Source: an uncultured Ruminiclostridium sp. (GTDB lineage Bacteria > Bacillota > Clostridia > Oscillospirales > Ruminococcaceae). From it: a stretch of DNA of 64,000 bases. The stretch is from positions 1-64,000 of the forward strand of contig CALXIO010000013.1 in assembly GCA_944388385.1 (NCBI GenBank). The letters are read 5' to 3'. Every line of letters starts with the position of its first letter. Position 1 is the first letter of the stretch. Under the pieces are notes generated by a model. It searched no databases and was not told where the DNA came from. It was given only the letters and a program-made list of their open reading frames with translations. The translations under genes and the position numbers were made by a program. Shown piece by piece: positions 33,254 to 38,578 of the stretch.

Positions 33254-33279
33254 AATAGCCTCCAAATTTGGAGGCTATT
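33254..33279 (-). terminator. Terminator after the GHKL ATPase gene
   Basis: Perfect 26-base palindrome with AATAGCCTCCAAA as its arm, followed on the minus strand by TTTTTG. It lies about 120 bases after the stop at 33401 and just upstream of the mraZ promoter. Bases 33280-33400 hold nothing else that I recognise. Confidence 0.85.
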
Positions 33280-33400: not shown

Positions 33401-36400
33401 TTATCTGTGGTTATCCTCTATCCACTTTGCCGCCATAAGGGGTGAAAGTGTAATGTCCATTGTCTTCTGCTCGCCCTCGCTTACAGAATCAGAGGAAACA
33501 GTTTCGCCAAGCTCTCTTGTTTCGCTGCCTATAATATCATAGGTGATCTGATTTCTGTACTTGATTGTGCAGAGTAAGAACTCAGGTGGGATAACATCGC
33601 AGTTTACGATTTCTTCAAGCCATACAAAGGGATTCATACCGCCTATGCTTATATCCTCTATAATCCAGCCGCTGGCCTCAAAGGAGTCATTAGCGCACAT
33701 ATAAAGTGAGAAGCGAAATTTTTCCTCTGTTTCATCCTTGAACATACCAACCTCAAAGTCCTTGACAATGAAGTTATTTATAATAGTAGACTCATATCCA
33801 CAGCAGGAGCATATACCGCCGTAGCCGAACAGCTTGCTGTTTACGTCCTTTGCAAAGTAGTTACGGTAGATACGGTCATTGGTAAGATCCCCAAGCTTCT
33901 TATACTGATCTCTGAGGAACTTAAGCTCTGAGCCTGTGATATAGGGCAGAGGCTTATAATAGTAGGGTATCTGGTCAAGCACTACCTGGTTAGGCTCTTC
34001 GGTGCTTGAATAGAACTGAGCAAGTATATTGTTGTTCTCACCTACTAAAAGGTACTCTACATACTTTGCAAACTCCGGCTTAGAAAGATCGTCCTTTAAG
34101 ATAATATATCTTACAATGGTCTTACGCTCTTCCTCGGTTATAGGCTCGTTTAAGTCAACTATACGGATAATCTTATCCTTTTCGCCTAAAAGTGCAATTC
34201 TCGGAATTTTAAGGTCGCAGATATAAAGGTTAGGCACTACCGCCTGTACCTTTTCATCGGTCAGGTCAGCTGAACGAAGCATACTCATAAGGGATGCCTT
34301 TTCAAAGGAATAACCTGCCTTTGTGAAGGGGAAGTCAAATACACGGCCGTTAAACATACCGCAGTTGATAAGAGCGTAAACGTCGCCGATAATTTCAAGC
34401 AGATCGGCATTTGTGATACTGCTGGGAATCATAAACTGCTTGCCGTAGGCTGCAAATCTGAACTTCTTGTTTATATCAAGCTGTAATGTAATGTTACCGC
34501 CCTGCTCCTTGATCTCACGCAGGAAGGTCATGGTGTCCTTACCCTGTGTAAAGCTGTTAAGAAGCATATTGATAACTTCATTATAAACCTGGTGGCTTTC
34601 AAATACGTTCTTGTGGGCTACTATTGCACTGTAAGCCTTTTCAAGATTGGTTACATTCATTCTTGCAACATCAAAGTTGTGCTGAATGTCACGGTACTTA
34701 ACTATAAACTGATAGTATTTCATACCGATCTTGTATTCCTTACCGTACATGGTATCGAAAAGGTTTAAGGTATTGATAAGTGCCTCTTCATCCGCTACTG
34801 CGTCATTTACCACATATTTGCCCAGCTTCAGGCTTACTATACTTCTGAAGCCGAAGGAAATATCATAGTCACGGATAGCAGGATTTTTCTCGCTGTCAAG
34901 AACATAGGTCTTGCCGTCAATATTGAAGCGGTAGCAGAATTCTCTGCCCTCCTCCTCATTTTCCTCATCATGCCAGTTATATGCCGCCATAATGATGTTT
35001 TCCGGCATATCTGTAACATCCGCCGCCATTCTGTCAAGCTCCTGCTCAATGTATTCCTTATAGGCAGAGCCGTCAAGGTGCTTCTTTTTGGATACATTGT
35101 CGGTAACGGAGAAGTAACCCAGCTCCTTTAACTCAGGATAGGGTGTGGGAGCTTCCTTGCCGGGAAGCTGTACGGAAATACAGTTATGGAACTTGCCCTT
35201 CAGATTTTGTACCATAACGCTGGTGTCAAGATAGTTGCTGAAGAACTCAAATACATAGTGCTTGGGACGCATATAGTATTTGTCGGAATTTGTTCTCTGC
35301 ATAAGCTCCAGTACAAAAAGCCTTGAATACTTGTCTATCATGTATTCAATGTCACGCACAATAGCCGCAGAAACCTCCTCCTCACACTCGTGACGGATAC
35401 CGGTACGGTGTGTGGTAACATAGGAGTTAGGTACGCTTACAAAGAATGCAGAAAGCTTTTCCTTTATAAAGTCCTCACCGGTGGATTTAATAAGACCGGT
35501 AAGCTCGTATGTGGAGAAGTAGTTGTACTTGTCAAGAAGTACCTTTACAAGAGTATCTCTCTTAGCTGAGGATACCGCAAAGGGTATAAGATATACAAAG
35601 CCGTCATTTTCATACCAGATAAACTCGATAATACTCTTGCCGTTCTGTAAAAATCTGATTGTGGGGTCATCCTCGGGGGATTTCTGATGACGGATTATCT
35701 TATATACAGCAAGGGGCTTACCCTGATCCATAACCGCCACATTGAAGGTACGGTTAATGCTTTCTTCAGACTGTTCATCAAATCTGCCAAGCTGCTTTTT
35801 ACGGATAAATGCAAAGCAGAATTCCACAAGGTTTATATATTCGCCCTTGCAGTTAGCCACATTTACAAGGTCATCCTTAATCTTCTTGTGTACCTCATCA
35901 GATACCTTGAATACTATCTCAGTACCCTTAAATACAGGGGCTGTAAGCTCAAGGTCAAGTATCTTAATGGTGCCGTTGTCATTTACAAGGCGTACAATGA
36001 AGTTATTTGAACGGAGCTTAAACCACTCAACATTCATAAATACGCTCTTTGAACCTACACCGAAACGGCCTTCTCTGTTCTTATCCTTTTCGCTTCTGCC
36101 TATACTTAAATAGTACAAAATCTGCTCTAAGGTAAAGCCCTCTTCGTTATAGGTAAGGTGAATTTGTCCGTCAACGTCAAAGTTGAAAAGTACCTTTATG
36201 TCCTGCTCTGAATAGTAACAGCCGAAGGTATTCTGAAGTAATTCACGGATAATAGATTCCTTGGGATAATCGCTTACCGAAAGTGACGCATTATAGGGCA
36301 TACGTCCCGAAAATACGTTATTGAAATATTCCTTGAACGGCTTGCTGTCCGCTTCACCGGTATAAAGCAGGGTCTGCATCTTCATAAGAGCCTGATCCAT

Positions 36401-36481
36401 AACCTCACGGTTTCCCTGCTGGTTAGCTTCATAGAAGTCACCTAACAGACCTGCTATTTCATCGTTACGAAACGCTTCCAC
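33401..36481 (-). CDS. Large GHKL (sacsin/Hsp90-type) ATPase, function unknown
   Basis: 1026 residues, soluble. The Bergerat ATP site is complete near the N-terminus: N-box RELLQN with E80 and N84, the G1-like NEEGF at 112-116, and GRFGVGSKSVF at 138-148. GRFGVG(F/S)KSVF is the form found in sacsin- and MORC-like HATPases rather than in histidine kinases. No kinase, gyrase or HSP90 C-terminal domain follows. A long alpha/beta region is succeeded near residues 895-960 by a Cys cluster (CSCCGYES plus a later Cys), perhaps a zinc knuckle, and a Ser/Glu-rich tail. The start is GTG at 36481, directly after the TAA of the helicase-like gene, with GGGAG upstream. Inferred: the two proteins act together on DNA, RNA or protein folding. 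Defence and housekeeping roles are both open. Confidence 0.8.
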   Translation of the reverse strand: MEAFRNDEIAGLLGDFYEANQQGNREVMDQALMKMQTLLYTGEADSKPFKEYFNNVFSGRMPYNASLSVSDYPKESIIRELLQNTFGCYYSEQDIKVLFNFDVDGQIHLTYNEEGFTLEQILYYLSIGRSEKDKNREGRFGVGSKSVFMNVEWFKLRSNNFIVRLVNDNGTIKILDLELTAPVFKGTEIVFKVSDEVHKKIKDDLVNVANCKGEYINLVEFCFAFIRKKQLGRFDEQSEESINRTFNVAVMDQGKPLAVYKIIRHQKSPEDDPTIRFLQNGKSIIEFIWYENDGFVYLIPFAVSSAKRDTLVKVLLDKYNYFSTYELTGLIKSTGEDFIKEKLSAFFVSVPNSYVTTHRTGIRHECEEEVSAAIVRDIEYMIDKYSRLFVLELMQRTNSDKYYMRPKHYVFEFFSNYLDTSVMVQNLKGKFHNCISVQLPGKEAPTPYPELKELGYFSVTDNVSKKKHLDGSAYKEYIEQELDRMAADVTDMPENIIMAAYNWHDEENEEEGREFCYRFNIDGKTYVLDSEKNPAIRDYDISFGFRSIVSLKLGKYVVNDAVADEEALINTLNLFDTMYGKEYKIGMKYYQFIVKYRDIQHNFDVARMNVTNLEKAYSAIVAHKNVFESHQVYNEVINMLLNSFTQGKDTMTFLREIKEQGGNITLQLDINKKFRFAAYGKQFMIPSSITNADLLEIIGDVYALINCGMFNGRVFDFPFTKAGYSFEKASLMSMLRSADLTDEKVQAVVPNLYICDLKIPRIALLGEKDKIIRIVDLNEPITEEERKTIVRYIILKDDLSKPEFAKYVEYLLVGENNNILAQFYSSTEEPNQVVLDQIPYYYKPLPYITGSELKFLRDQYKKLGDLTNDRIYRNYFAKDVNSKLFGYGGICSCCGYESTIINNFIVKDFEVGMFKDETEEKFRFSLYMCANDSFEASGWIIEDISIGGMNPFVWLEEIVNCDVIPPEFLLCTIKYRNQITYDIIGSETRELGETVSSDSVSEGEQKTMDITLSPLMAAKWIEDNHR

Positions 36482-38467
36482 TTATATCACTCCCTCATTG
36501 AATTTTTTCATAAATACTCTTAAATCGTCGTCAACCTTAAGCTGATCCTTAAGGTATCTCCAGGAATGGAGAAGCACCGGCAATTTAAGTGAATCCGATA
36601 CAGAATCAACACATTCTCTTACAGGCATTATGCTCTTGTTTCCGTCGCAACGGTCAAGCTCATTTCTTGCCCCTTCAAGTCCCTTGAACATTTCGCTGTT
36701 CATAAGACCCTGCTCAAAGGCATTGTAGGCTGAATTGTACATTGATGCCTTTAACTCGCTATCACTTATCTCAATAATTCTCTGGTTCTCATCAAGATAA
36801 ACAAGACAGTTCTTATATCTGTCAAGAGCAGGCTTTATGAGTGAACGGAGTGTCTTTTCGTCTGTGTTCAGATCTCTTATACTGTTTTCTATACCGAAGG
36901 CGTGATAAATCTTATCAAGCTTTAAGGTGGTGTACTCGTTTGTTCTTGCCGCTGATGAAACGTCAACATCGGAAGCCAGGTTATAGTCGCTTTCAAACTT
37001 AACTATAACGTCACGGGCACTTGAAACCTCACCTGTATAGCCGCATACATACTGTATATCACGGATACAGTCCACTATATAGTCAACTGAATCGGGTATA
37101 TCGAATATAACATTTCTTCCCGGAAGACCGGATACAATGCTCTTGTAAACCTGTCCGAAAAGTACACGGGAAATCATTCTTCTGTCAAACAGTCCGTTGT
37201 CGTCGGTAAACAGAATAAACTCTCTGCCTGTACCCACATCCACGCTGTGTCTTGCGGCACGCTGTTCAAGTAATACCGGTGTGTCCGGAATTTCATAGTT
37301 GAACACATGGGTGGTTTTCTTCATGGCAGGATTTATTGAGCCTATACGGTCAACAGTAATTACTATCTTTACATCCTTCTTGCTTTCATAAAGCAGGTCA
37401 TTATACTCAGTATAGAATATATCGCCTCTGTCAATCTTCAAAAGATTGGGAACATTGGGATAGTATGCCTGGATAACCTTCTTAAGATAGCTTATTGTTG
37501 AACCGGTGGTGCAGTAGATGGCAACTCTTGCATTGTCATCCTCCATTACCTCGTCCAGCTTTGCAAGGAAGCAGTCCAGCTTCTTGTCCACCGCACGAAG
37601 GTCATTAACATCACCTAAGTTATAGGAAGGCTTTGTATATATCTTCTTTGCCTCAAGGCCGTATTCCTCAAAGATATTACCGCCGGAACGATAAAGGGGA
37701 AGTCCGGTCTTTATATCTATCAGTCTTCTTGAATGTGCAAGAAAATCATCATCAAACTTATATCTGAGCATTACCACATTTCTTGCAACATTTCCCTCAT
37801 AAACTGACTTGGGGAAATATCTCATCATGGGAATGTCTAAGTCAAAGGCGGCTGTGGACTTGTCAAACAGACAGCTGTCGATAATTCCTGCCTTTTCCTC
37901 ATCAGCCATAAGCTCCTTTACAAGTCGTCTTATGTTGTCATAGCTCTGCTGGTAACCGCAGGGTATGGGACTGAATACCACAAGTCTTTGTGTCTTAGCC
38001 TTGATATGCTCGATATAAAGATCAACATCAACACCGCCTGCCGCAAGACCGGCATCAAGTATGATAAGATCCCAGGCAGCGCCCTCAGAGGCAAACTGCT
38101 TTAACACGGCAGGATTGTTTGCAAGAGCCTTATCGGAAACTATGTAGGCATTTGCCATATCCTTGTCATAGTAGGTTATTGCTCTTGATGCACCGGAAAT
38201 CATCTTGAAGTCCACACCGGTAAGTGATACAAGTGAACGGTACCAGCTGTGCATAAGGTGTGCCGCACATATAACAAGTATGTTCGGCTTTTCGCAGGTC
38301 ATTACTGTATCAATGACCGCAAGCTCGGCCTTTGAATTCTTATCTCCGCCGTATTCATCCAGCACAAGACAAAAGCCGAATTTTTTTATCTTCTCGTAAA
38401 ATGACATATTAACGGCAGAAAGATCCTTACCGTAATAGGGTATCCATTTTATCTGTTCAGCTCCCAA
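36482..38467 (-). CDS. SNF2/SF2 helicase-like protein with degenerate Walker A
   Basis: Start proposed at the TTG at 38467, nine bases after GGGAGG; an ATG at 38530 would add a hydrophobic 21-residue extension without a ribosome site. 661 residues. The order of SF2/SNF2 motifs can be traced: motif I-like LDEYGGDKNSKAE (about 36-48), Ia NILVICAAHLMHSWY, II-like WDLIILDAGLA (about 132), III-like VVFSPIP, IV-like ARVAIYCTTGSTISYLKKV, and VI-like EQRAARHSVDVGTGRE. The Walker A lacks GK[TS] and motif II lacks DExH, so ATP hydrolysis is doubtful. A helical C-terminal region follows. It is the first gene of a two-gene unit with the GHKL ATPase. The helicase relationship is inferred from motif order only. 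Confidence 0.65.
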   Translation of the reverse strand: MGAEQIKWIPYYGKDLSAVNMSFYEKIKKFGFCLVLDEYGGDKNSKAELAVIDTVMTCEKPNILVICAAHLMHSWYRSLVSLTGVDFKMISGASRAITYYDKDMANAYIVSDKALANNPAVLKQFASEGAAWDLIILDAGLAAGGVDVDLYIEHIKAKTQRLVVFSPIPCGYQQSYDNIRRLVKELMADEEKAGIIDSCLFDKSTAAFDLDIPMMRYFPKSVYEGNVARNVVMLRYKFDDDFLAHSRRLIDIKTGLPLYRSGGNIFEEYGLEAKKIYTKPSYNLGDVNDLRAVDKKLDCFLAKLDEVMEDDNARVAIYCTTGSTISYLKKVIQAYYPNVPNLLKIDRGDIFYTEYNDLLYESKKDVKIVITVDRIGSINPAMKKTTHVFNYEIPDTPVLLEQRAARHSVDVGTGREFILFTDDNGLFDRRMISRVLFGQVYKSIVSGLPGRNVIFDIPDSVDYIVDCIRDIQYVCGYTGEVSSARDVIVKFESDYNLASDVDVSSAARTNEYTTLKLDKIYHAFGIENSIRDLNTDEKTLRSLIKPALDRYKNCLVYLDENQRIIEISDSELKASMYNSAYNAFEQGLMNSEMFKGLEGARNELDRCDGNKSIMPVRECVDSVSDSLKLPVLLHSWRYLKDQLKVDDDLRVFMKKFNEGVI

Positions 38468-38549: not shown

Positions 38550-38578
38550 ATTATAATACATTTTATTCATTTTTACAA
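38550..38578 (-). promoter_or_regulatory. Promoter of the helicase-like/GHKL unit
   Basis: Minus strand TTGTAA (38573-38578), 17 bases, TATAAT (38550-38555), about 85 bases before the proposed start. The unit is thus transcribed on its own. Confidence 0.65.

Follow-up and report, generated by a model that had tools for sequence, protein, structure and literature searches.

A conserved gene pair of Ruminiclostridium joins a sacsin/HSP90-like ATPase to an SNF2-fold protein with degraded motifs

Two large genes that abut one another beside mraZ, one encoding a protein with an apparently complete ATP site and the other a protein that resembles a helicase, raise the question of whether a Ruminiclostridium chromosome carries a new defense module or an unnoticed piece of core machinery. 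They lie on the minus strand of the first 64,000 nucleotides of contig CALXIO010000013.1 (assembly GCA_944388385.1, an uncultured Ruminiclostridium sp.), the stretch that we analyzed and call the window; the SNF2-like protein is here named HEL and its ATPase partner GHKL. The original prediction, made from the letters of the DNA, had left both answers standing. In our analysis, the near-universality of the pair within its genus, its core chromosomal contexts, and the purifying selection acting on it argue for a constitutive cellular role, and the pair is probably a hitherto unrecognized housekeeping machine of its lineage and not a mobile anti-phage system. Genomes and loci are cited by our own numbers (G and L).

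Gene structure and the two proteins

Both open reading frames were borne out (Table 1), and since their orthologs are found at 31-80% identity with ratios of nonsynonymous to synonymous substitution (dN/dS) well below 1, we regard HEL and GHKL as real genes. HEL lies 5' of GHKL, and its TAA stop codon (36484-36482) abuts the GTG of GHKL (36481); this abutment recurs in all 25 orthologous pairs printed, one of them from another genus, which upholds the two-gene unit first described. Read mechanically, the HEL frame spans 682 amino acids (aa), or 661 aa when counted from its TTG, nine bases past a GGGAGG (38482-38477). The promoter and terminator originally assigned to the pair do exist as sequences, but the totals of promoter-like and terminator-like sites in the region are not above those of shuffled sequence, and both are therefore plausible only.

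The complete Bergerat ATP site claimed for GHKL is confirmed by conservation and by fold. All three boxes are kept in 37/37 orthologs, with G138, F140, G141, G143, K145, and S146 of the G2 box invariant, and the G1 box is of the sacsin type, without DxGxG. The AlphaFold model has a mean predicted local distance difference test score (pLDDT) of 83 and a predicted template modeling score (pTM) of 0.55, which makes the domain placement uncertain; the fold comparison effectively covers residues 55-435 (ATPase plus transducer) and barely probes the C-terminal half. This region matches HSP90 (Z 14.1) and MORC2 (Z 12.2), as well as topoisomerase VI and GyrB, and boxes and fold together (Z 12-14 to HSP90, GyrB, and MORC2) identify a Bergerat-fold protein with predicted ATPase activity. 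Every one of the 37 members matches NF047352, a sacsin ATP-binding-like model, at E<0.01, whereas the window protein stays under the curated thresholds (29.6 of 50 bits for NF047352, 16 of 32.8 for PF25794, 12.6 of 25 for PF13589) and, judged by those of NF047352 and PF25794, would not be classed as a sacsin-domain member. It shares with these sacsin/HSP90-like families the order of the boxes, the type of G1, and the fold of residues 55-435, but has one ATPase module and a C-terminal half with a CxxC motif. There C891 is invariant and C894 nearly so, and a third cysteine, C929 (33695-33697), is also invariant; the cluster is possibly a metal site. Of the earlier sacsin/MORC-like label, the sacsin-type ATP site holds, whereas MORC2 is one structural match among many GHKL proteins: the GHKL and transducer fold is common to both, but no sequence-level match, CW finger, or coiled coil was identified in the window protein, and its partner is SNF2-like. 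Human MORC2, an ATPase, compacts DNA (PMC12216690). Sequence searches of the PDB gave no match with the GHKL profile and chance matches only with the single HEL or GHKL protein. GHKL was also considered as a replacement for HtpG or MutL, and both ideas were rejected: HtpG is present in the genome (L001), and a MutL-type GHKL match (L002) directly follows a mutS-like gene.

HEL was modeled at a pLDDT of 89, and structure comparison assigns its residues 6-473 to the SNF2 fold (Z up to 18.2), with both lobes matched to INO80, ISW1, and Snf2h at Z 15-18. By sequence profile its closest solved relative is RapA (E 8e-8), an RNA-polymerase-associated SNF2 protein. While HEL shares the two-lobe fold with RapA, INO80, ISWI, and Chd1 (Z up to 18), it differs from them in that motifs I, II, III, and V are degraded, in having a GHKL protein as partner, and in a helical C-terminal part of ~190 residues that lies outside these matches. 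Motif I could be read in 55 orthologs, of which 8 carry GK[TS] (those at L058 and L071, for example, have GKT) and 50 keep Lys43; at motif II, Asp138 is kept in 56/56, with the following Glu in only 14/55; at motif VI, Arg403 is present in 56/56 and Arg406 in 47/56. GK[TS] and DE occur together in 0/55 orthologs, and neither the TATP of motif III nor a canonical motif V was found in any of 56. HEL thus lacks the SNF2 catalytic set (GKT of motif I, DExH of motif II, motifs III and V). From these motifs, HEL is probably a pseudo-helicase and canonical ATP hydrolysis and translocation are unlikely; the helicase-like partner that had been proposed stands as to fold, but not as to catalysis, the decay of the motifs having been overlooked.

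Table 1. Coordinates of HEL, GHKL, and associated features in the window
Feature	Position	Strand	Description
HEL	36482..38467	-	SNF2-fold protein, 661 aa, TTG start; probable pseudo-ATPase
GHKL	33401..36481	-	sacsin/HSP90-like ATPase, 1026 aa, GTG start
Promoter-like TTGTAA-17-TATAAT	38550..38578	-	upstream of HEL
HEL Walker A region, degenerate, CLVLDEYGGDKNSKAE (residues 33-48)	38324..38371	-	
HEL DExx box, degenerate, WDLIILDAGL (residues 132-141)	38045..38074	-	
HEL motif VI region LEQRAARH (residues 400-407)	37247..37270	-	
Shine-Dalgarno-like GAGGGAG of GHKL	36490..36496	-	inside 3' end of HEL; from sequence
GHKL N box RELLQN (residues 79-84)	36230..36247	-	R79, E80, L81, Q83, N84 invariant in 37 orthologs
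GHKL G1 box YNEEGF (residues 111-116)	36134..36151	-	Y111, N112, E113, F116 invariant in 37 orthologs
GHKL G2 box GRFGVGSKSVF (residues 138-148)	36038..36070	-	from alignment of 37 orthologs
CxxC motif near GHKL C-terminus (YGGICSCC, residues 887-894)	33800..33823	-	from alignment of orthologs
Terminator-like hairpin	33254..33279	-	between GHKL and mraZ; 11-bp stem, then T run

Distribution, selection, and locus context

In the window genus, GHKL is present in 69/71 species genomes (41/41 of high quality) and HEL in 67/71 (39/41), both nearly always in single copy; of the two genomes without GHKL, one has a HEL cut at a contig edge and the other is 86% complete. Two further genera, sisters of this one, carry the pair within the family sample, where it occurs in 5/148 genomes, our own counted, and no GHKL orthologs were detected outside this three-genus clade among 295 genomes sampled from the order and 299 from the phylum. 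The idea of an unnoticed Ruminococcaceae machine fits better than that of a defense module, although it applies to one clade and not to the whole family. A scan across 84,980 species returned 104 relatives; among the 80 listed, the titles are nearly all Clostridia, Oscillospiraceae, or Ruminiclostridium sp., and a handful that read Roseburia, Bacteroides, or Eubacterium are labels of metagenome-assembled genomes. The window genome itself probably falls within the [Eubacterium] siraeum / Ruminiclostridium-type group. Plasmid and viral collections yielded no relatives of the window pair beyond MT835670.1, and IMG/VR none for GHKL of either the window type or the intact-pair type described below. 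MT835670.1 (L169, "UNVERIFIED Bacteriophage sp.") was rejected as a phage relative: its HD-HEL-GHKL order equals that of genome G132, and the entry is probably a mislabeled bacterial chromosomal fragment.

Nei-Gojobori dN/dS, computed pairwise between close orthologs, lies around 0.02-0.16 in GHKL and around 0.04-0.22 in HEL, within the range of rsmH, pbpB, murE, and mraY where comparable; HEL is the faster-evolving of the two. At the protein level, HEL distances track GHKL distances with a rho of 0.74, compared with 0.40-0.55 for either protein against rsmH or pbpB and 0.65 for rsmH against pbpB. Together with the pattern of presence and absence, this correlation supports vertical descent of the pair.

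The order HEL-GHKL-mraZ-rsmH-ftsL-pbpB, with GHKL directly 5' of mraZ, was found in 23 of the 38 loci fetched, from two genera, and pgk/tpi/gpmI precede the pair in many of the mraZ-linked genomes. In other subclades it occupies core sites elsewhere, next to rnfC-type genes or close to thrS. The two genes relocate jointly, and since the mraZ site is common to two genera, it may be ancestral. No constant third gene was found across these contexts. The earlier remark that the pair comes with neither methylase nor nuclease holds. The original prediction had counted strict conservation at this locus in all relatives, with a known housekeeping role, against itself: the genes are strictly conserved in relatives, but not at a single locus, and no known role attaches to them.

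Decay of the pair is seen in a few species. G159 retains only the C-terminal half of GHKL (L074:3162-4652; 496 aa, without the ATPase domain), still beside mraZ, and HEL is undetectable there, which suggests either that this half is useful alone or that decay is under way. G189 has GHKL without HEL, and in G190 and G153 HEL is shortened to 437-438 aa. These short HELs (L075:5739-7052 and L070:6948-8264) lack the C-terminal part and apparently retain parts of both RecA-like lobes.

Relatives and known systems

A two-gene SNF2+GHKL pair with intact motifs occurs in genome G096 (L083:945-6764) and on the Lysinibacillus capsici plasmid pFN9B (L168:6398-12081). Gene order, sizes, and adjacency are those of the window pair and the cores can be aligned, but, unlike HEL, its helicase has complete motifs (DEVGTGK[TS], DEAH/DEGH, TATP, GRxDR). 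The intact pair is also rare: its GHKL was found in 1/248 family genomes and 0/398 of the phylum sample, apart from weak matches in the window genus, and the weak match of G096 in the GHKL search is of the intact rather than the window type. On pFN9B its neighbors encode a PD-(D/E)XK nuclease, a helicase of the UvrD type, and a methylase of the Eco57I type, and we consider the intact pair a candidate two-gene defense system. HEL aligns with the intact-pair helicase over 448 columns (probability 99.5), as any SNF2 protein might. From such alignments a common ancestor of the two pairs is plausible, and descent of the window pair from an intact, conflict-type pair is possible; the plasmid-borne copy beside nuclease and restriction genes is the reason to consider a defense ancestry. 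Within the window genus, G165 carries a second, larger adjacent pair (L084:5786-14150), comprising a DrmD-like SNF2 protein of 1193 aa, whose N-terminus weakly matches a Swt1-type HEPN, and a sacsin-like partner of 1593 aa, with two sacsin-type ATPase modules and matches to the PADLOC TmtA models.

Searches of Pfam, PHROGs, NCBIfam, and PADLOC with the window proteins gave weak domain-level matches only, and our literature searches found no description of an SNF2+GHKL/sacsin pair. No PADLOC 2.0 component is matched over its full length; the matches to TmtA, HmaA, and DrmD are partial and at domain level, so that profile searches failed to place the pair in a described defense system. TmtA is matched by ~22/37 GHKL members, in the window protein over the ATPase domain only. 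HmaA, DrmD, and TmtA are SNF2 or sacsin-type domains of candidate defense systems and to that extent resemble the window pair, but the matches are weak and confined to the domain in common. The methylases or other components that Hma and DISARM systems include are absent at the window pair. Nor does the pair resemble the MORC-associated Z1 systems: its partner has an SNF2 fold, and a third conserved neighbor was not found.

A proposed clamp with a non-translocating partner, and its alternatives

We propose, at a probability of roughly 0.45, that HEL and GHKL form a clade-specific, vertically inherited core machine in which GHKL is the motor and the SNF2-fold protein an adaptor or sensor. The two would be translationally coupled subunits of one complex; ATP binding by GHKL would close a dimeric clamp of the Hsp90/MutL/MORC type, and hydrolysis would reopen it. 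HEL combines the two-lobed fold and some nucleotide-contact residues with the loss of canonical hydrolysis and translocation motifs, a loss that makes a non-translocating adaptor or sensor its most likely role; it would bind a nucleic-acid or nucleoprotein partner and couple it to the clamp. The client of the machine may be nucleic acid, a nucleoprotein, or a protein. Several points weigh against this proposal. HEL keeps the Walker A Lys in 50/55 orthologs and Asp138 and Arg403 in all, which leaves residual ATP binding or unusual hydrolysis possible. Its nucleic-acid binding is suggested by the modeled fold only. HEL or GHKL has been lost or shortened in G159, G189, G190, G153, and G152, so the machine is not indispensable. 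Finally, the alignment between the window and intact-pair GHKL proteins is confined to the 154 columns of the ATPase domain (probability 89).

The best-surviving alternative, which we nonetheless think unlikely, is an anti-phage or anti-plasmid system fixed in the clade, in which nucleic acid that is foreign or abnormal would be recognized by HEL and then blocked, without a nuclease, by the GHKL clamp. The rare intact relatives (one is plasmid-borne and adjoins nuclease/UvrD and restriction genes), the second DrmD-like and TmtA-like pair in the same genus, the TmtA matches, and the faster evolution of HEL are all consistent with such a system. Near-universal occurrence in the genus, mostly as one copy and in core chromosomal contexts, is however not the patchy, defense-island distribution of such modules; dN/dS resembles that of core genes, and the one relative in plasmid and viral collections is probably a mislabeled chromosomal fragment. 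These observations, along with the restriction to three genera among the genomes sampled, weaken the new defense module of the original prediction.

A protein-folding machine, with GHKL as an Hsp90/sacsin-like chaperone, HEL as client adaptor, and nucleic acid uninvolved, seems somewhat less probable still. The sacsin and HSP90 families are closest to the GHKL ATPase region, and HEL has lost its canonical motor motifs; on the other hand, HtpG is also encoded in the genome, so that the general chaperone has not been replaced, nucleic acid is the normal contact of the SNF2 fold, and the ATPase region resembles GyrB, TopoVI, and MORC2 almost as closely as it does HSP90. Also rather improbable is a chromosome- or transcription-associated bacterial clamp akin to eukaryotic MORC/SMCHD1, in which an obligate SNF2-fold pseudo-remodeler would direct a GHKL ATPase, and which would have arisen from a conflict system before being fixed as core machinery in this gut clade. 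That HEL is an active, divergent SNF2 translocase and the pair an ordinary remodeler-like motor is very improbable, since the fold, the mostly or fully kept Lys43, Asp138, and Arg403, and GK[TS] in 8/55 members are set against the failure of GK[TS] and DE to occur together and the loss of TATP and canonical motif V throughout.

Virtually all species of a common genus of gut bacteria keep this pair of large proteins, under selection like that on cell-wall genes, and yet none of the libraries searched has a name for it. Should the proposed machine be confirmed, it would present an SNF2 protein stripped of its canonical motor motifs while its GHKL partner kept the ATP site, and possibly a conflict-type module turned core machinery.

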